A stretch of 64,000 nucleotides of DNA from Roseburia intestinalis L1-82 (GTDB lineage Bacteria > Bacillota > Clostridia > Lachnospirales > Lachnospiraceae): NCBI RefSeq assembly GCF_900537995.1, contig NZ_LR027880.1, forward strand, positions 2,798,001 through 2,862,000, in the 5' to 3' direction. Positions within the stretch are counted from its first letter, which is position 1; every line of letters starts with the position of its first letter. Positions 31,356 through 39,661 of this stretch are shown one piece after another. A program made the position numbers and the translations under genes. The notes below the pieces were generated by a model that made no database searches, had not been told where the DNA came from, and worked only from the letters and a program-made list of their open reading frames with translations.

Positions 31356-34085
31356 TTATTTCTCCTTTTTTCCAAAACGGATCTTCACTTCACGTTTTAA
31401 CATATAAGGAAGAATTGCCTTCATCTTGTCCTCCGCTTTTACCATGCGGCTGCACTCCGGCAGCTCGCGGTGCAGATGGATCGCATCAAATTCACACTTT
31501 GTCGTGCAGACACCACAGCCGATACACTTGTTCGGATCGACCACGGAAGCTCCACATCCAAGACAACGCGCGGTCTCGATCTTCACCTGCTCCTCGGTCA
31601 GTGTCCTGTGTGCATCGCGGAATGATCTGTGCGCATCAATCTTGTCATCCATGGCAGGACGCTGTCTCTTTGCATTGTCATATCCTTCCAGGGCAAGATT
31701 TTCCTTATCCAGTTCGATAAACTGACGGCGGTTTCTTCCGATCGTCATGCTTGCGTTTTCATGTACAAAACGGTGAATGGACTCTGCACCTTCTTTTCCG
31801 TCTGCGATCGCATTGATTGCAAAACTCGGTCCGGTATAGACATCTCCACCGACAAAGATATCCGGTTCTGCGGTCTGGTAAGTAAGCGGATCTGCTACTG
31901 CTCCGTTTCCTCTTCCAAGTTCCACTTTAGAGCCTGCCAAAAGGTCACCCCAGAGAATGCTCTGTCCAATACTTAAGTATACATGCTCACATTCCACGGT
32001 CATTGTCTCATTCTCATCGAACTGTGGGTTAAAACGTCCAGTCTCATCTTTGACGGAAACACATTTTTTCAGCACGATGCCACGCACTTTACCGTTTTCT
32101 GTCAAAATCTCTTTCGGACCCCAGCCACAGTGAACGGCAGCTCCCTCTTCTTTGACTTCTTCCACCTCATCTTTGGATGCCGGCATCTCTTTTTCAGACT
32201 CTAAGCAGAACATGGAAACTTCGTTGGAACCACAGCGTGCCGCTGTACGTGCCACATCGATTGCCACGTTACCGCCACCGATGACAACAGATCTGCCATC
32301 CACGCGGTAGTCTTCGTTTCCACCGGATACGATATGTAAGAAATCAACCGCACTCATTACACCCGCGGCATCCTCGCCCGGAATGCCTGCTTTGCGGCTT
32401 CCCTGGCAGCCGATTGCAATATAAAATGCCTGATATCCCTGCGCGCGCAGTTCGTCTAACGAAATATCTTTTCCAACTTCCACGCCGCATTTGATATCCA
32501 CACCAAGTTCACGCATCACTTCGATTTCAGCATCCACAACATTTTTCTCTAATTTAAAAGAAGGAATACCGTAAACGAGCATACCGCCCGGGCGCTGATT
32601 TTTCTCAAATACAGTCGGTTTGTAACCTCTGGTTGCCAAATAAAACGCACAGCTTAAACCAGCCGGACCACCACCAATGATTGCAATCTTCTGTGGGAAA
32701 GTTCCACGGTTTGACGGCTGTACGACCGGTGGAATGTAACGTGTATCTGAATTCAGATCAAGTTCTGCGATAAATTTCTTGACATCATCGATCGCAACTG
32801 CCTGGTCCACAGTTCCTCTTGTACATGCATCCTCACAGCGGTGGTTGCAGACACGGCCGCAGACTGCCGGGAACGGATTTTCCTTTTTGATCAGGGCAAG
32901 GGCATCTGTGTATCGTCCCTGTGCCGCCATCTTTAAGTATCCCTGTACTGCGATATGTGCCGGACATGCCGTCTTACACGGTGCCGTTCCGGTATCATAA
33001 CAGTTGATGCGGTTGTTATCACGGTAATCCATATCCCATTTTTCCGGTCCCCACTTGGTATTATCCGGCAGCTCGTGTTTCGGATAGGTGATGGTTCCAT
33101 CTTTCGTACAGAGTTTCTGACCCATTTTTACGGCACCCGCCGGACAGTACTCTACGCAGCGTCCACATGCAACACAGTCCTTTGTTTCAACCTTTGCCAC
33201 ATAAGCAGAACGTGACATGTTCGGTGTGTTAAATAACTGTGAAGTACGAAGTGCATTACAGATATTTACATTACAGTTACAGATGGCAAAAATCTTGTCC
33301 TCGCCGTCAATGTTTGTGATCTGATGAACAAATCCGTTGTCCTCCGCACGCTGTAAGATTTCCATTACCTTTTCACGTGTAATGTAATGTCCCTTGTTTG
33401 TCTCGACTAAATAGTCAGCCATATCGCCGACACCGATACACCAGTCTTCCGGATCATCCGCGCATCCCTCGCCCAAAACACCGCGGGAATAACGGCAGGA
33501 ACACGGACCTGCTGCATATTTTCCATCATATTTATCCAGCCAGTGGGAAATATGCTCGACACTGACAGACTCATTTTCCGTCTCGATCGCTTTCTCAACC
33601 GGGATAACGTGCATACCGATTCCAGCGCCTCCTGGCGGTACCATCGGTGTTACTTTCTGCAATGGTAAAAATGCCATGCGCTCAAAGAATGATGCAACTT
33701 CCGGGTGCTCTTTGATCTGGTCTAACTTCATATTAAAGAACTCTGCACTTCCCGGTACATACATCGGAAGAACATACTGTTTCTCATGCTTTGGATTTTC
33801 CCAGTTGTATTCCAAAAGACCGATATTGCTCATCTCCTGCAACAATTCTTCTAACACTTTCTCTTCTTTTCCGGTTGCTTTTACAATCTGTGCTAATGTC
33901 ATCGGTTTGCGCACTTTCATTTTCAATGCAACCTCTGCCATCTCGTCCGTCACAAGTGCTTCTAGTCCATAATATTCCGGATCTTCGGCTGTCACTGTAT
34001 GACCGATACGGTCGGTGATCTTCTGTCCTAATTTTAAGATCAGCTCTCTCGGCTGTTCCGGTGGTGTGTACTCAAACTTTTTCAT
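31356..34085 (-). CDS. Iron-sulfur/FAD oxidoreductase (ferredoxin plus GltD-like), hyp-linked
   Basis: The start is ATG 34085, overlapping the hypB stop (ATGA), with AGGAGG eight bases upstream. The ~909-residue product has an N-terminal helical domain, a Cys-rich segment (PCSCRYSRG), a 4Fe-4S motif DCVACGRCVEYCPAG, and a GltD-like cluster domain (CPAHIAVQGYL, CGRVCNHRCEDAC). Next come FAD-binding IIGGGPAGLSCAFYLA, a second Rossmann motif VVIGGGNVAIDVART, and the FAD-binding GGDVYTGPSFAINAIADG. C-terminal CLGCG and CIGCGVCTTKCEF add one more cluster. It likely moves electrons between NAD(P)H, flavin and ferredoxin in the cytoplasm. The hypA/hypB context suggests a link to hydrogen metabolism, not proven. 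Confidence 0.88.
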   Translation of the reverse strand: MKKFEYTPPEQPRELILKLGQKITDRIGHTVTAEDPEYYGLEALVTDEMAEVALKMKVRKPMTLAQIVKATGKEEKVLEELLQEMSNIGLLEYNWENPKHEKQYVLPMYVPGSAEFFNMKLDQIKEHPEVASFFERMAFLPLQKVTPMVPPGGAGIGMHVIPVEKAIETENESVSVEHISHWLDKYDGKYAAGPCSCRYSRGVLGEGCADDPEDWCIGVGDMADYLVETNKGHYITREKVMEILQRAEDNGFVHQITNIDGEDKIFAICNCNVNICNALRTSQLFNTPNMSRSAYVAKVETKDCVACGRCVEYCPAGAVKMGQKLCTKDGTITYPKHELPDNTKWGPEKWDMDYRDNNRINCYDTGTAPCKTACPAHIAVQGYLKMAAQGRYTDALALIKKENPFPAVCGRVCNHRCEDACTRGTVDQAVAIDDVKKFIAELDLNSDTRYIPPVVQPSNRGTFPQKIAIIGGGPAGLSCAFYLATRGYKPTVFEKNQRPGGMLVYGIPSFKLEKNVVDAEIEVMRELGVDIKCGVEVGKDISLDELRAQGYQAFYIAIGCQGSRKAGIPGEDAAGVMSAVDFLHIVSGGNEDYRVDGRSVVIGGGNVAIDVARTAARCGSNEVSMFCLESEKEMPASKDEVEEVKEEGAAVHCGWGPKEILTENGKVRGIVLKKCVSVKDETGRFNPQFDENETMTVECEHVYLSIGQSILWGDLLAGSKVELGRGNGAVADPLTYQTAEPDIFVGGDVYTGPSFAINAIADGKEGAESIHRFVHENASMTIGRNRRQFIELDKENLALEGYDNAKRQRPAMDDKIDAHRSFRDAHRTLTEEQVKIETARCLGCGASVVDPNKCIGCGVCTTKCEFDAIHLHRELPECSRMVKAEDKMKAILPYMLKREVKIRFGKKEK

Positions 34086-34762
34086 GCGTGTTCCTCCTCT
34101 CTCCATGCAGCGGTCTCTTTTTTCAGCCAGTCTGCCCATTCTTCCATACCTTCACCTGTCTTTGCACAGATCGGGATGATCTTTGCATTCGGATTGCGCA
34201 TCAGGATGTTCTTTTTACACTGCTCTAAGTCAAAATCAAAATATGGCATCACATCGATCTTGTTGATCAGCACGACATCGCAGATGGAAAACATCAGCGG
34301 GTATTTTAAAGGTTTGTCATGTCCTTCCGGTACGGATAAGATCATCGCATTTTTCACTGCACCCGTATCGAACTCCGCTGGACATACCAGATTGCCGACA
34401 TTCTCTAAAATAACCAGTTCCACATCATCTGTTCCAAGTCCTTTTAATCCCTGTCTCGTCATATCTGCATCCAGATGACACATGCCGCCTGTATGAAGCT
34501 GGATTGCCTTTGCTCCGGTCTTTAAAATTGTTTCCGCATCCACGTCAGAGTCGATATCTGCCTCCATGACACCGATCTTCAAGTCATCTTTCAGTGCCTC
34601 GATCGTGCGTGTCAGCGTCGTTGTCTTGCCTGATCCAGGCGATGACATCAGGTTCAACAAGAACACGCCGTCTTTTTTCAGTTCTTCGCGAAGCAATGCT
34701 GCCTGCTTGTCATTGCTCTCGAAAATGCTCTGTTTTACTTCCAGAATCCGTACATTTCCCAT
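34082..34762 (-). CDS. hypB: Nickel-incorporation GTPase HypB
   Basis: HypB is the GTPase that, with HypA, drives nickel insertion. The start is ATG 34762 (MGNVRILEVK), preceded by GGAGATT; an earlier ATG gives four extra residues. The 226-residue product has the P-loop SSPGSGKTT (about 40-48), the metal-site block GGMCHLDADM (Cys and His, about 92-101), EN-VGNLVCPAEFDTGA and the GTP-specificity motif INKIDVMPYF. It lacks the N-terminal His-rich tail of some HypB proteins. It is the first gene of the hypB-oxidoreductase-hypA operon. Confidence 0.95.
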   Translation of the reverse strand: MGNVRILEVKQSIFESNDKQAALLREELKKDGVFLLNLMSSPGSGKTTTLTRTIEALKDDLKIGVMEADIDSDVDAETILKTGAKAIQLHTGGMCHLDADMTRQGLKGLGTDDVELVILENVGNLVCPAEFDTGAVKNAMILSVPEGHDKPLKYPLMFSICDVVLINKIDVMPYFDFDLEQCKKNILMRNPNAKIIPICAKTGEGMEEWADWLKKETAAWREEEHA

Positions 34763-34925
34763 GATAATCTCCATTTCTTTTGTAACATTTTTCGCCTTAT
34801 CTGTTACTTATAGATAAATTCTATCATTTTAGGGTGGTTGTGTCAATAAATTCTGGTCATACCAGTGTGCCAATTTTTTAGAATTTGTTTAGAATTGTCT
34901 GATTGCTATCACAGGAATGCGAAGA

Positions 34926-35018
34926 TTTTTTAATTCATGGACGTAATTTTCCTATGAAGATTCGGGTGTCAAAAGGTGGCTTCCAAATTTTGACACCCGA
35001 ATCCTATGAATTAAAAAA
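34926..35018. repeat. Dispersed palindrome, copy 2 (CATAGGA family, long form)
   Basis: Nested inverted repeats of 13 and 16 bases give a long cruciform. Part of the sequence matches the element at 16792-16828. It has no coding capacity. Confidence 0.5.
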
Positions 35019-35093
35019 ACAACACTACAGTCCGCAGAAAAACCTGTATACTGTAACGTTGTCTGTCTTACTTTAGTATGCCTTTACTTTTAC
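35013..35093. repeat. ~81-bp direct repeat, copy A (3' remnant of a surface-protein gene)
   Basis: This matches 36995-37075 at all but a few positions, at an offset of 1,982 bases. It includes the terminator stem ACAACACTACAGT/ACTGTAACGTTGT and the minus-strand codons for the tail VKVKAY. In copy B those codons end the intact surface protein, so copy A is a duplicated or left-over gene end. Confidence 0.8.
35019..35062 (-). terminator. Terminator at copy A, ending the DUF3990-NADAR cassette
   Basis: The stem ACAACGTTACAGT/ACTGTAGTGTTGT (minus strand) is followed by a T-rich stretch, giving a rho-independent terminator just past the NADAR gene. Confidence 0.7.
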
Positions 35094-35134
35094 ATATCCT
35101 TCTTCATAAGAATATTTCAGATAAGTAATAACAT

Positions 35135-35608
35135 TTACAACCTGTCTCTTATCATCATCAATGTGTATCCTAATAAGTTTTGACCTCTCCATTTGCTCAA
35201 ATCCATCCGATCTGGATCTTTCATAGATAATCCAATCCCCCAAATTCTGTCTTTTACCGCACATTCTGCAAGGATTTGATCTTTCGTATGTAACAAACCT
35301 TCCCTCAATTTATCATTTTGGGAAAATTTTGCTATAAGCCCTTCATAAACTACAATCTGCCTTATACCATTCCAGTAATTTTCATTATAGCCTGCCACCA
35401 TACGTCCCAGTTCTTTTATAGATCCAACCTCATCTGTTTCCAATATCTTTTCAGCAATCACATCGTCTCTGAAACAAACTGCCTTTTTATACATCATATA
35501 TTGCTCCATAGATGAAAATCCGATTCCATTTACATCAAACTGTGACATATACCAGTTACTCAAGTATCCATTTTCCTCATCAGGATTATGAAAACATAAA
35601 ATATCCAT
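35135..35608 (-). CDS. NADAR domain protein (RibX/YbiA-like), candidate ADP-ribose eraser
   Basis: NADAR proteins (YbiA family) are N-glycosidases; some characterised members remove ADP-ribose from guanosine in nucleic acid and act as antidotes to DarT-type toxins. The 157-residue product shows the family pattern: GYLSNWYMSQFDV near the N-terminus, SSMEQYMMYKKAV (about 33-45), the YNENYWNGIRQIVVYEGLIAKFSQN block (about 75-100) and IWGIGLSMKDPDRMDLSKWRGQNLLG at the C-terminus. The start is ATG 35608; an in-frame GTG four codons earlier is possible. It is the third gene of a tight cassette after DUF3990. Confidence 0.9.
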   Translation of the reverse strand: MDILCFHNPDEENGYLSNWYMSQFDVNGIGFSSMEQYMMYKKAVCFRDDVIAEKILETDEVGSIKELGRMVAGYNENYWNGIRQIVVYEGLIAKFSQNDKLREGLLHTKDQILAECAVKDRIWGIGLSMKDPDRMDLSKWRGQNLLGYTLMMIRDRL

Positions 35609-35609
35609 T

Positions 35610-36026
35610 TTATGCTGCACCTACCTTTTTTACTGCCAGATCAAGCTCTAAGTCATGCAGTCCGTGATACGCTTTCATCAAAAAATTTAACGGTACTTTT
35701 TCTATCACCTCCGAGCTTGGAATATTATAGTACCATTGATAATACGCATAAAACTCGCCAATCCAGTCCGGCATAAACCCTTCTAAAGCCTTTCCAGCTT
35801 TCAATTTATACTTTTCTGTATCCGAAAAATATCTCCATAATTCTTTAGCATCCATGGTATTAACATACGCCATCGACTCATCGATATATTTTCTGGTTTT
35901 ACTTTTCATATACGCTTCTATAAAATCCGTTGTATCATTTTCAGGAAATGTCTGCGCTACAAAATCAAACAGTTTTCCCTGACTCTCTACCACATCATCT
36001 AAATATGTCTCTGAATATGCCCGCAT
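35610..36026 (-). CDS. Hypothetical protein between DUF3990 and NADAR genes
   Basis: The start is ATG 36026 (MRAYSETYLDD), with GAGGAG upstream, ten bases after the DUF3990 stop. The ~138-residue product is helical and acidic near the N-terminus (FDFVAQTFPENDTTDFIEAYMKS), with KELWRYF in the middle and an aromatic WIGEFYAYYQWYYNIPSSEVI stretch. Small helical proteins of this kind commonly lie next to DUF3990 genes. Its stop is just before the NADAR start. It may be a partner that neutralises the ART-like protein or helps NADAR. I do not recognise a named family. Confidence 0.7.
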   Translation of the reverse strand: MRAYSETYLDDVVESQGKLFDFVAQTFPENDTTDFIEAYMKSKTRKYIDESMAYVNTMDAKELWRYFSDTEKYKLKAGKALEGFMPDWIGEFYAYYQWYYNIPSSEVIEKVPLNFLMKAYHGLHDLELDLAVKKVGAA

Positions 36027-36036
36027 TTTTCTCTCC

Positions 36037-36684
36037 TCATAAAAGTGTACTAAACACATTGGTTACTTTATTTGCATCAGAGTCAATCAATTCTTTCATC
36101 CTTTTCCTTGCTGTCACATCGCGTTCATTGTATTTTTCATTAAACTCGTCATATTCCACGGAAATAAGTTCTTCTTTTCTCTCAGACAGCCTCGAATATG
36201 CCAGTTCTGATTTAATACAATACTGTATTCCCAAACCTCCCAACAAAAGGAGCTCTTCTAAAATTTCCACATCAATTTCATCTCTGACAAACGCTTTTGC
36301 AATATAAAAGTACGATGCATCCGCTCTCCATCCTTTTATCACATCATATCCGCTTGTTTCGATACCATATTTTGCAATAAACTTCTGCGACAACATTCTG
36401 TAACGCTTAGAGTCTGCTGCATCCCTGTGTTTCATTAATTCAGCCAGCCATGATAAAATGCTATATTTCTGGAAATCAAGTACTTTCAGTCCTTCCATAT
36501 CCAACTCATATTTATGAACCCAGCCATTTGTCTCATCCGGTCTGCAAACCGCCCATTCTTTTGCAAGATCAATATTTTCCGTCAAATAAAAGCCTTTTCC
36601 GTAATCATGCCGGTTTTCTCCCAATCCAAAAGCTGGCTTTATTTCTTTGTCAGGACTCCCATGATACAAGATAATCTTACCCAT
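36037..36684 (-). CDS. DUF3990 protein, ADP-ribosyltransferase-like
   Basis: The start is ATG 36684 (MGKIILYHGS); AGGGAGG lies upstream and a longer reading has none. The ~215-residue product has YHGS (His8), the HDYGKGFYLTE block (about 26-36) and QYCIKSELAYS (about 158-168), which fit the H-Y-[QE]xE pattern of ADP-ribosyltransferase folds. DUF3990 has been grouped with ART-like proteins by comparative analyses; its target is unknown to me. Together with the NADAR gene two positions downstream, this suggests transfer and removal of ADP-ribose on the same target. It is the first clear gene of the cassette. Confidence 0.75.
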   Translation of the reverse strand: MGKIILYHGSPDKEIKPAFGLGENRHDYGKGFYLTENIDLAKEWAVCRPDETNGWVHKYELDMEGLKVLDFQKYSILSWLAELMKHRDAADSKRYRMLSQKFIAKYGIETSGYDVIKGWRADASYFYIAKAFVRDEIDVEILEELLLLGGLGIQYCIKSELAYSRLSERKEELISVEYDEFNEKYNERDVTARKRMKELIDSDANKVTNVFSTLL

Positions 36685-36836
36685 ATCGTCATCCTCCCTA
36701 TACAAACATAATTTAGAAATTGCAATCTGTTCCGCTTTTTTAAGCTAAGTTCTTTTAGCGTACCCAATAATGCTTTATTCCCCTCTTTGATTGCCTGATC
36801 TACCTCTTTTCCTAGAGCAATACATAAAAAGGTCAT
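36639..36836 (-). CDS. Short frame upstream of the DUF3990 gene, possible remnant
   Basis: A 65-residue frame begins MTFLCIALGKEVDQAIKEGNK and runs into the DUF3990 ribosome site, overlapping that gene by 46 bases. A GAGGTAG lies before the ATG. The helical, basic first 40 residues look like protein; the last 25 are a shadow of DUF3990. In similar loci a small DUF3791 gene precedes DUF3990, so it may be a broken relative. Evidence is weak. Confidence 0.35.
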   Translation of the reverse strand: MTFLCIALGKEVDQAIKEGNKALLGTLKELSLKKRNRLQFLNYVCIGRMTIWVRLSCIMGVLTKK

Positions 36837-36994
36837 CCGCTACCTCACGATAACACCGCTAAGCCTACGCTATTGAAAAAAGTGTCGCAGGTAATGCAGC
36901 CGGAGCCACACGCATCTCTGCACGGATTGACCGATTTCATTTTACCATTTCTTCTGAAAATATTCTATACCTATCCTGCCATAGATTGCACCAG

Positions 36995-37075
36995 AAAAAA
37001 ACAACGCTACAGTCCGCAGGAAAACCTGTATACTGTAACGTTGTCTGTCTTACTTTAATATGCCTTTACTTTTAC
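36995..37075. repeat. ~81-bp direct repeat, copy B (native 3' end of the surface-protein gene)
   Basis: This is the counterpart of 35013-35093. It contains the terminator stem ACAACGCTACAGT/ACTGTAACGTTGT (37001-37044) and the last codons and stop of the surface-protein gene. The two copies bracket the DUF3990-NADAR cassette. Confidence 0.8.
37001..37044 (-). terminator. Terminator of the surface-protein gene
   Basis: A 13-base imperfect stem with a loop containing CCGCAGG/CCTG, followed on the minus strand by TTTTTTTCTGG. It lies just after the stop at 37055. Confidence 0.75.
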
Positions 37076-39661
37076 TTTGGAAGAAAGTCCCCTGCTCTTA
37101 AATAATTTCTTATAAGCGGATAATTTCTTCTTCGGTACTTTGACCGTGGTTGCTTTTGTGATTCCTTTAAATGTACTCTTAGAAAGTGTCTTTGCTTTCA
37201 GTTTTGTAGATTTTATCGTAATTGTCTTTAACTTCTTGCATCCGGAAAAGACATTTTCTCCGATCTTTGATACATTCTTACCGATCGTAACCGTCTTTAG
37301 TTTCTTATTATTCTTAAATGCACTCTTTGCGATCGATGTTACTTTATAGGTCGCACCATTAATTTTGATAGAATCCGGCACAGCGATCTTTGTCTGTTTT
37401 TTGTTTTTCGGTGCCTTGTATTCTACCTCATGGACTTTACCGGCATTCTTCTTGATGGTATAGAACGATCCATCTGCCTTATTCACAACAACCTGTCCGA
37501 CGGTAAGTGTATTTGTATTGGACGGCTGTTCATTTGTTGTTTCTTCCTTCCCGGTCACCGGGATCACAACTGCTGCTTTCTGATAGCCGCATACGCTGCA
37601 TTCCTCATGGCTGCTGCCTTCGGTACTTTCTGTTGCCTGCCGGTCGATGATCGTCTGAAATGTATGCTCTGCCTGTTCTAATTTCTTTCCACATCCATTT
37701 TTACAATCTTTCCAATGTGCCTTTTCATCCTTTGACCAGACTGCATCTGTTACATCATGTCCAAGTGAATCCGTCATGATCGTCTTTGTCTGAACCTCAA
37801 ATGATGGATTTTTAAATTCTGCTTTGTACTCTTTCTTGCCGTTTGTTTCACATCCTGCTTTTTCCTCTGTATAAGATGCAGTTACAGTTTCGCTTTCTTC
37901 ATTTTCACATCCCTCACATATCCTGCGTGCCGTACAGCTCATATCGCTCTCGCTCCATGTATACTGTGGTGCACCATAGTGATGTCCGTCTGCATTACTG
38001 TATATGCTGCCATCCTGATATACAGTCATACCGCCCAATACCGGAGTCTGATCTGTTCCGATTTTCTGTCCCCAGATCAATTCAGCCCTCCTGCTATCTC
38101 CACTTCCATCCAGAAGATATGCAACCTCTCCATCCGTGAATGCTTTCGTTGTCTTTGTAATCTCGCCGTCCCATGGTAACGTATTCTTCTCCATACAGTA
38201 ACAATTCGATATCTTGCCGGTGATCTCGTCTTTCTCAGCTTCTCCGTTACCGATCAGCGGATACTCCGTTGTATGATAGCAATTCTTAATATTGACACCC
38301 GTAAATCTTCCTGCAATACCACCAACGTCTGCAGCATCTTCACCTGTTACTACCACATTTCCTATATTGAACGAATTTTCCAGACTGGTATTGCTGTCCC
38401 ATGATCCGATCACGCCGCCGGTATACTTACCTGTATTCGTGACATCTCCCATATTTCCATACTTACTACCATCTGAATTGCTGCCCATTCTTCCGATCAC
38501 ACCGCCGACATTATCTCCATTTCCTTCCACAGCTCCCCTATTTAAAATAAATCCATCCATAGAAGTCATCGGTGCAGAATATGCATACTCCCCGACAACT
38601 CCACCGACACTATTTTTACCTGTGATCCTGCCGGTATTGATCACGCCCTTTGCTGCCTGAATTTGACAGTTACTGTTATCAGAACTTGTCATATGCCCTC
38701 CAATACCACCAACACTTGTAATTGCTGCTGTCACTTCTCCTTTATTCTGTAACATTCCATTCCGGGAAATTATAGATATATCAATTCCATATCCGATCAA
38801 TCCTCCTGCTCCCATAGAAGTATTGCTTCCCATACTAGATATCTTACCCGTATTGATAATATCCGCATCCGCTTGAATGGACGCAAGATCTGCATATCCG
38901 ATCAAACCTCCGACATATCCACTTGATTTAGCAGTTATAGCTCCAGAATTGAGAATACCCTCATGGACGATCACCTTCATTCCACCACTAGCCTGACCGA
39001 CAAGTCCACCTACATTCGCTGTCCCTGTAACTGCACCTGTATTACTGATCGAGGTATCGGATTCGATCTGTGCACTGCTTGCATATCCAGCCAAACCTCC
39101 TGCCTGACCTCCTTGTGCGGTTATATCTGCTTTATTGTTACAGTTTACGATTTTTGCATCACTACATGCCTGACCACAGATACCTCCTACACTATCCCAG
39201 CCTTTAGAACTTCCTGCAGTGGTGACATTTCTTATCTCTCCGCCACTGCCTAGTATGCCAAACAAACCGGCATTATTGTTAATGCTTCTGTCCGCATGGA
39301 TCGTGATCTCTGCTCCGTTACCATCGAAGACTCCTTTATAGGAACCGGAGGAATCTCCGATCGGATTCCATGTTAAGTCTTTCTTTTCTCCACGTACTGT
39401 TGTATCGATCTCTGTTACACCATCTGCAACTTTCGCACATTCATTTCTATCCGAGGATGCTTTTACGATCTCTGCAAACTTCCACAGATCCTCCGAACCG
39501 GTGATCACATACGGATCTTCTGCTGTTCCACTTCCCTGTAATTCCTCTGCCGCATAAACTGTCACACTTCCCTGACTGCCTGTCACAATGCCTGCCACAG
39601 CCAGAAAGCCCAATAATATGCCGCCTGCCATTTTCCTGCTTATCATTTTTGTCACTTTCAA
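37055..39661 (-). CDS. Large secreted surface protein with GLUG-like and BspA leucine-rich repeats
   Basis: The 868-residue product has a signal peptide (MISRKMAGGILLGFLAVAGIVTGSQG, with cleavage near VYA-AEE). The region about 40-520 has many repeats such as NVGGLVGQASGG, YVGGLIGYAD and GVGGVVGEYAY. These resemble GLUG-type beta-helix adhesins. A middle section carries CxxC pairs (CTARRICEGCENEESE, CKNGCGKK, ECSVCGYQK). The C-terminal ~130 residues are BspA-type leucine-rich repeats (KSAFKNNKKLKTVTIGKNVSKIG) that end KVKVKAY. No LPXTG or anchor motif is seen; attachment may be non-covalent. A role in binding host or plant polymers is likely but not shown. An ~81-bp copy of its 3' end lies near 35.0 kb. 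Confidence 0.85.
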   Translation of the reverse strand: MKVTKMISRKMAGGILLGFLAVAGIVTGSQGSVTVYAAEELQGSGTAEDPYVITGSEDLWKFAEIVKASSDRNECAKVADGVTEIDTTVRGEKKDLTWNPIGDSSGSYKGVFDGNGAEITIHADRSINNNAGLFGILGSGGEIRNVTTAGSSKGWDSVGGICGQACSDAKIVNCNNKADITAQGGQAGGLAGYASSAQIESDTSISNTGAVTGTANVGGLVGQASGGMKVIVHEGILNSGAITAKSSGYVGGLIGYADLASIQADADIINTGKISSMGSNTSMGAGGLIGYGIDISIISRNGMLQNKGEVTAAITSVGGIGGHMTSSDNSNCQIQAAKGVINTGRITGKNSVGGVVGEYAYSAPMTSMDGFILNRGAVEGNGDNVGGVIGRMGSNSDGSKYGNMGDVTNTGKYTGGVIGSWDSNTSLENSFNIGNVVVTGEDAADVGGIAGRFTGVNIKNCYHTTEYPLIGNGEAEKDEITGKISNCYCMEKNTLPWDGEITKTTKAFTDGEVAYLLDGSGDSRRAELIWGQKIGTDQTPVLGGMTVYQDGSIYSNADGHHYGAPQYTWSESDMSCTARRICEGCENEESETVTASYTEEKAGCETNGKKEYKAEFKNPSFEVQTKTIMTDSLGHDVTDAVWSKDEKAHWKDCKNGCGKKLEQAEHTFQTIIDRQATESTEGSSHEECSVCGYQKAAVVIPVTGKEETTNEQPSNTNTLTVGQVVVNKADGSFYTIKKNAGKVHEVEYKAPKNKKQTKIAVPDSIKINGATYKVTSIAKSAFKNNKKLKTVTIGKNVSKIGENVFSGCKKLKTITIKSTKLKAKTLSKSTFKGITKATTVKVPKKKLSAYKKLFKSRGLSSKVKVKAY

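Follow-up and report, generated by a model that had tools for sequence, protein, structure and literature searches.

A 64,000-nucleotide stretch of the Roseburia intestinalis L1-82 genome (NZ_LR027880.1, positions 2,798,001–2,862,000; hereafter the window) carries a compact minus-strand operon of three genes, A, B and C, flanked by a BspA-type surface-protein-like gene and by a gene that we take to be hypB-like, a name not derived from a family scan. The first-pass annotation of this DNA had described three tightly spaced minus-strand genes here, encoding a DUF3990 protein, a ~138-residue protein and a NADAR protein; open reading frames (ORFs) and matches to Pfam and PADLOC bear this out. A protein with 98% identity (P0122) is likewise recorded from R. 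intestinalis. The features, in window coordinates, are as follows.

36037..36684, minus strand: gene A, 215-aa DUF3990 protein, predicted toxin with an ADP-ribosyltransferase fold (H8, Y33, Q154; PF13151, PDC-M42A)
35610..36026, minus strand: gene B, helical partner with two putative DUF3791-type modules, candidate antitoxin (138 aa; PDC-M42B, profile comparison)
35135..35608, minus strand: gene C, NADAR of YbiA type, candidate ADP-ribose eraser (157 aa; E35, K42, E115; PF08719)
36693..36699, minus strand: AGGGAGG, ribosome-binding-site-like, 8 nt ahead of the A start (sequence reading)
36995..37075, minus strand: repeat copy 2, comprising the surface gene's 3' end and terminator (hairpin −26.5 kcal/mol, z −7.7)
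35013..35093, minus strand: repeat copy 1, copied 3' end plus terminator, 3' of C, which would end the operon (hairpin −19.8 kcal/mol, z −4.3)
37055..39661, minus strand: surface-protein-like gene of BspA type (LRR_5), from which the repeat derives (PF13306, E 2e-13)
34082..34774, minus strand: hypB-like neighbour gene on the other flank (ORF)

The A stop and B start are separated by 10 nt, the B stop and C start by 1 nt. We favour ATG starts for C (35608) and A (36684); the upstream GTG (35620) and TTG (36705), respectively, are less likely.

The trio is already in PADLOC-DB as a phage-defence candidate (PDC): all three PDC-M42 models are matched within one operon, each protein full length (A to PDC-M42A, E 3e-124; B to PDC-M42B, E 3.6e-78; C to PDC-M42C, E 2.3e-87), and we regard the two as the same system. 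The PDC lists reportedly stem from a preprint. For PDC-M42 we found a list entry without description, and no paper naming it in the open-access library searched, which did not take in preprints; there, one paper (PMC13356809) names PDC-M13, four name DUF3990 and one DUF3791. New here are the ADP-ribosyltransferase (ART) model of A, B as the partner of A with two modules, a lopsided pattern of decay and a type I restriction neighbourhood; the mechanism, the make-up of B and the kinship with PDC-M10 and PDC-M13 are proposals of the present analysis.

Gene A belongs to DUF3990 (E 1.6e-37, 129 bits against a gathering cut-off of 32.2). Its structure model (predicted local distance difference test, pLDDT, 92.3) matches ART folds, with PARP domains heading the Foldseek list, although the best E value (5.4e-3) falls short of a strict cut-off; structure comparison also finds a resemblance to the ART-fold toxins of ParST, MbcTA, Xre-RES and NatRT. 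H8, Y33 and Q154 are conserved, forming a motif of the H-Y-[E/D/Q] kind found in the ART superfamily (equating Q154 with the PARP glutamate is our reading of the alignment). The earlier placement of DUF3990 in the ART fold is thus supported by model, structure matches and residues, and A is likely an ART-fold toxin with an H-Y-Q motif and a corresponding predicted activity. The same Pfam family is present in the C-terminal domain of Serratia Rhs5, in a polymorphic-toxin position; Rhs5, though, is a secreted effector with a separate small immunity gene, and the passage concerned contains no test of it (PMC4524185). Relatives of A (E ≤ 1e-20) occur in 60 of 299 genomes of the bacterial family, with 67 matches. 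The R. intestinalis genome itself holds a second, truncated DUF3990 (a 95-aa open frame) beside a PDC-M10B partner (L002, 1486–1770 and 1089–1523), and a third short DUF3990 piece elsewhere (L003). At L027 (515–1366, minus strand) a helix-turn-helix (HTH) domain is fused to the DUF3990 N terminus, and B is short there.

Gene C is a NADAR protein (E 1.9e-47, 162 bits against a cut-off of 35.1) that aligns to PDB 8bau with E 1.8e-17. Mapped through that alignment to the residues given in passages of PMC11543638, its catalytic E35, K42 and E115 are invariant in all 44 proteins compared (43 intact triads plus the window). Glu at 115 and Leu at 113 make C a YbiA type; the DarT1-type catalytic Asp, two residues before the superfamily Glu, is not present. 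The anti-phage NADAR model DS32_2 (NF053876) scores 38 bits, below its curated cut-off of 240, and the riboflavin-intermediate N-glycosidase model TIGR02464 scores 142.8 bits, above its NCBIfam cut-off of 73.7.

Two known systems likewise pair an ART toxin with a NADAR protein. According to passages of PMC11125620, the myxobacterial YarT–YbiA operon joins an ART-fold toxin to a YbiA-type NADAR that serves as its antitoxin, and YbiA-type NADARs tested by others hydrolyse guanine-ADP-ribose; that operon, however, has two genes and no B; its authors assign YarT to the HYD1 group, and the likeness to A considered here is one of fold. DarT1–NADAR (DarTG1) shares the combination, but passages of PMC11543638 describe its NADARs as using Asp where C has Leu together with the YbiA-type Glu, and A, a DUF3990 protein, has no Pfam match to DarT.

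Gene B reaches no Pfam family cut-off; its model (pLDDT 94.3) comprises nine helices. In a survey with A as query (299 family genomes searched, 30 loci fetched), B lies directly 3' of A in 28 of the 29 loci besides the window, including L150, where the B frame is broken near its end. Within the genus, B is matched in 19 of 60 genomes, and all 24 places among the matches listed also hold a full or partial A. Gene order makes B the regular partner of A, not an extra. The first-pass annotation had proposed a partner role for B, which stands, and had called it unrecognised, which the PDC-M42B match does not support; the optional part is the NADAR gene. NADAR adjoins 74 of 96 short Bs but 0 of 20 testable Bs of HTH length, and 22 short Bs occur with A and without C. 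Distant Bs are longer, and the four that were scanned all end in an HTH_3 domain. By the usual marks of a type II toxin–antitoxin (TA) pair, A and B qualify as two tightly linked, co-travelling genes; a Pfam scan found no DNA-binding domain in the window's B. In one public protein of 358 aa (P0121), near-identical versions of A and B are naturally fused in frame. A mixed A-and-B alignment intended for a joint model was dropped, the B rows having aligned badly.

Elsewhere in the family, DUF3791 genes (found in 58 of 200 genomes) often lie directly 5' of the DUF3990 gene, with a second gene of ~75 aa (S2) directly 3'. Profile comparison relates B to both: its N-terminal half matches S2 (P 4e-6) and its C-terminal half DUF3791 (P 1.2e-5), scores reached by 0 of 60 column-shuffled controls in each case. 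The DUF3791 set had been pruned by eye from 40 to 35 rows and the S2 set from 40 to 37. Untrimmed profiles give P 0.0025 for DUF3791 and 3.1e-5 for S2, and whole trimmed B gives 1.5e-4 and 1.9e-5. With the halves swapped, the N half still matches DUF3791 (P 7.9e-4, 0 of 60 shuffles) and the C half matches S2 at P 0.019 (2 of 60); compared with one another, the N and C halves of B give no match (P 0.05). The Pfam DUF3791 model (PF12668, cut-off 25) passes on S2 (27), clears its cut-off by a narrow margin on the C half of a single distant B (25.2) and stays below it on the window's B, so that the kinship rests on profile comparison and that one distant B. B looks like two fused DUF3791-type modules. 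At L053 (4757–4969) a small M13C-type gene directly precedes B, and A is missing there.

How the three genes decay was surveyed at 78 loci found through B, of which 72 could be judged on both sides after 6 at contig ends were set aside. The triad does recur in other genomes, in support of the original reading: A, B and C are all intact in 43 loci. Another 13 have a missing or disrupted A but retain whole B and C; in 10, A and B persist with no whole C adjoining; 2 keep A with a broken B; and 4 are otherwise degraded. Counted from the 55 loci with an intact A, B is disrupted at 2, whereas C is absent or not whole at 11 and intact at 44. Of the three loci scored as having a ‘remnant’ C next to intact A and B, one, L112, may hold a diverged copy, and at another, L108 (1238–4220), a C start piece follows B and a whole C stands ~2.5 kb further on, as if something had inserted at the C start. 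Selecting loci by B inflates the count of intact Bs; the A-query survey agrees nonetheless. Such lopsided decay is what would be left if a harmful gene were lost and its antidotes retained. The distance from B to C is identical in 39 of the 43 intact triads, and sequence distances correlate between A and B (0.62, permutation maximum 0.28) and between B and C (0.53, maximum 0.36), but only weakly between A and C (0.29, maximum 0.27), a pattern that favours a module centred on B over one in which A is finely tuned to C. With C as query, 18 of 33 loci have a B match (15 do not) and 9 a full-length A.

These loci are related and do not count as independent events: the two genome collections overlap, so the B-, A- and C-query surveys are not independent; four duplicate loci were skipped in the adjacency survey and the remaining duplicates kept; L089 and L246 are the same sequence, and L115, L150 and L249 seem to come from one genome. 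Among the carriers of B at 70–83% identity are named isolates of Faecalicatena, Holdemanella, Holdemania, Oribacterium, Hornefia and Bifidobacterium, making transfer between phyla likely; more distant hosts are known from metagenome bins, which may be misassigned.

We hold, with moderate confidence, that the cassette is a three-part, TA-type defence module in which B would neutralise the toxin and the NADAR protein would act as an eraser. A, the presumed ART-fold toxin, would most likely be held inactive through binding by B; in other lineages, an HTH-bearing B would also repress its own operon, as in ParST, MbcTA and Xre-RES. C, going by the activity reported for its family, would erase ADP-ribose from guanine, serving as a second safety catch in the branch that often sits within type I restriction loci. 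Infection or loss of the locus would free A from B, and A would then modify its target, whether nucleic acid or something else, and halt growth or the replication of phage, C meanwhile removing leaked marks.

The first-pass annotation had cast DUF3990 as writer and NADAR as eraser, with B as partner or second antidote. In its fullest form A modifies guanine or another target, C is the true antidote, as in DarT1–NADAR and YarT–YbiA, and B is accessory, a chaperone or targeting subunit. The YbiA-type residues of C, the antitoxin role of YbiA itself and the 44 intact Cs beside 55 intact As speak for this. Whole branches nevertheless have A and B without C (the HTH-type loci and the 22 short Bs above), A seldom occurs without B (1 of 29 loci) and the A–C correlation is weak. 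A NADAR protein that is optional, adjoining none of the HTH-type Bs and not whole beside 11 of 55 intact As, makes a writer–eraser pair unlikely to be the whole antidote logic, and we consider C as the sole antidote unlikely; the partner role of B survives. Less likely again is that A consumes NAD like RES, MbcT and NatT, depleting NAD+, with C handling a small-molecule ADP-ribose product or doing another job: A resembles such toxins in fold, but it retains the PARP/diphtheria-type H-Y motif, PARP domains top its Foldseek list and the pairing with NADAR points to base-linked ADP-ribose. Least probable is that C is an ordinary riboflavin-intermediate N-glycosidase riding along with an A–B system, since, for all its TIGR02464 score and its relatives without A or B (15 of 33 loci lack a B match), B-to-C spacing is nearly fixed, B–C distances correlate, and TIGR02464 spans the whole YbiA group, whose tested members cleave guanine-ADP-ribose in the passages cited above.

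Of the 78 loci of this form, 30 have type I restriction genes no further than 1.5 kb from B, against 0 of 32 distant-form loci (one of which, L159, does carry C), 2 of 50 DUF3791 loci and 0 of 30 hypB loci; the hsdS and hsdR profiles were trained on the 78 B-found loci and may favour that group. hsdS lies just 5' in 23 loci, hsdR 3' on the same strand in 17, and hsdS pieces on both sides in 13. At L204 the order is N6_Mtase, Methylase_S piece, A, B, C, Methylase_S piece, HsdR, and hsdS repeats of 47 and 29 nt surround the cassette. The window's copy is outside a type I restriction locus, yet it too sits between copied pieces of a neighbour. Of the original proposal of an ADP-ribosylation toxin/antidote or defence system, the defence setting holds up, through the PADLOC entry and these restriction neighbours; the writer–eraser pair is unlikely to be all there is to the antidote side. 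At L048 (5884–9465), a 1194-aa ORF directly after the cassette fuses a half-size Methylase_S (HsdS) to a full HsdR. At L089 (2400–5000; identical to L246), an array of CRISPR type, its 36-nt repeat recurring every ~66 nt or so with 10 copies between 4300 and 5000, ends 56 nt before the B of a B–C remnant from which A is gone.

A viral contig collection held no relatives of A or B. A phage collection yielded three unannotated faecal records matching A/B; the sole record inspected, L204, has the gene content of a fragment from a bacterial type I restriction operon, and we rejected a viral origin. One plasmid record matched, Treponema saccharophilum pTS1 (L205), which has A and B with no NADAR annotated alongside; genes annotated as a ToxN/AbiQ-type toxin, a HEPN nuclease and a NUDIX protein lie near them.

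PDC-M13 combines DUF3990 with DUF3791-type partners (M13A, M13B and M13C being DUF3791, DUF3990 and S2), its modules separate where those of B appear fused. A PDC-M10B protein next to a DUF3990 piece has M13C matches in each of its halves (in one of the two sequences scanned), and its modules read as fused in the opposite order to those of B. NADAR is absent from the matched models of either system. From these sequence relationships, a common plan in three different layouts seems to underlie M10, M13 and M42. A more speculative proposal, doubtful when its three parts are taken jointly, is that DUF3990 with two DUF3791-type modules constitutes a large, unrecognised TA superfamily with M10, M13 and M42 as its layouts; that the M42 branch would guard type I restriction loci, between hsdS pieces and hsdR, and on release by attack or rearrangement would ADP-ribosylate guanines while NADAR protects host nucleic acid; and that the antitoxin would be of a new kind, paired small helical modules that are split, reordered or fused, with an enzymatic eraser as second lock. 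Both DUF3990 and DUF3791 occur frequently in this bacterial family and still carry the label ‘unknown function’ in Pfam; joining them in one toxin-and-partner scheme would supply a shared, testable mechanism for three defence candidates already catalogued. If a toxin is restrained by a binding partner as well as by an enzymatic eraser, it would illustrate how NADAR proteins come into defence operons other than those of DarT1 and YarT, and the hsdS link points to a test of how such modules and restriction cooperate.

The flanking repeats, noted earlier as ~81-bp copies at offset 1,982 with a terminator in each, are as described: 35013–35093 and 36995–37075 are 81 nt long and identical at 78 of 81 positions, and both form a strong hairpin on the minus strand with a run of T after it. 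Repeat 1 also holds the predicted leftover of the surface-gene end, VKVKAY; these codons lie 41 nt beyond the NADAR stop and so fall outside the NADAR protein. Against the whole 4.49-Mb genome, repeat 1 gives 8 matches at E ≤ 10, 2 of them full-length and 6 pieces of 14–37 nt; with only two full-length copies, the pair is neither a dispersed element nor chance.

The same annotation took the repeats to suggest insertion or exchange at the surface gene. No empty site was found among the genus genomes compared, that is, no relative with the same flanks minus the cassette (other strains of the species lay outside the comparison). A 406-bp flank has matches in 8 of 60 genomes, that of the window included, but no congener matches it over its length; the closest outside the window's own genome reaches 73% over 212 nt. 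Relatives of hypB are present in 29 of 62 genomes of the genus, again counting the window's own; at 29 hypB loci other than the window's, no A, C, surface gene or repeat lies within ~1.5 kb, and three longer hypB-locus stretches have different neighbours. Synteny around hypB is lost among congeners. We rejected direct repeats as a fixed feature of the cassette: across 52 loci the median repeat score was 0, and the 12 best, scoring at least 18 (reversed control at most 14), were by eye hsdS DNA.

At this locus it is a real possibility, somewhat short of an even one, that the repeats are no insertion footprint, repeat 1 being either all that is left of a second, tandem surface gene whose body gave way to the cassette or a copied terminator. 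The shared sequence is limited to 21 coding nt plus the terminator, and elsewhere, too, the cassette sits between copies of neighbour genes (hsdS); on the other side, repeat 1 retains no further surface-gene sequence, and the cassette itself has no recombinase, which leaves insertion neither favoured nor excluded. Two further scans went unused: one for promoters (11 sites against 8.8 expected) and one of Rfam (one match, under its cut-off). Between the hypB-like gene and repeat 1, window positions 34955–35012 form a near-perfect hairpin (−29.8 kcal/mol, z −7.7), possibly a terminator.
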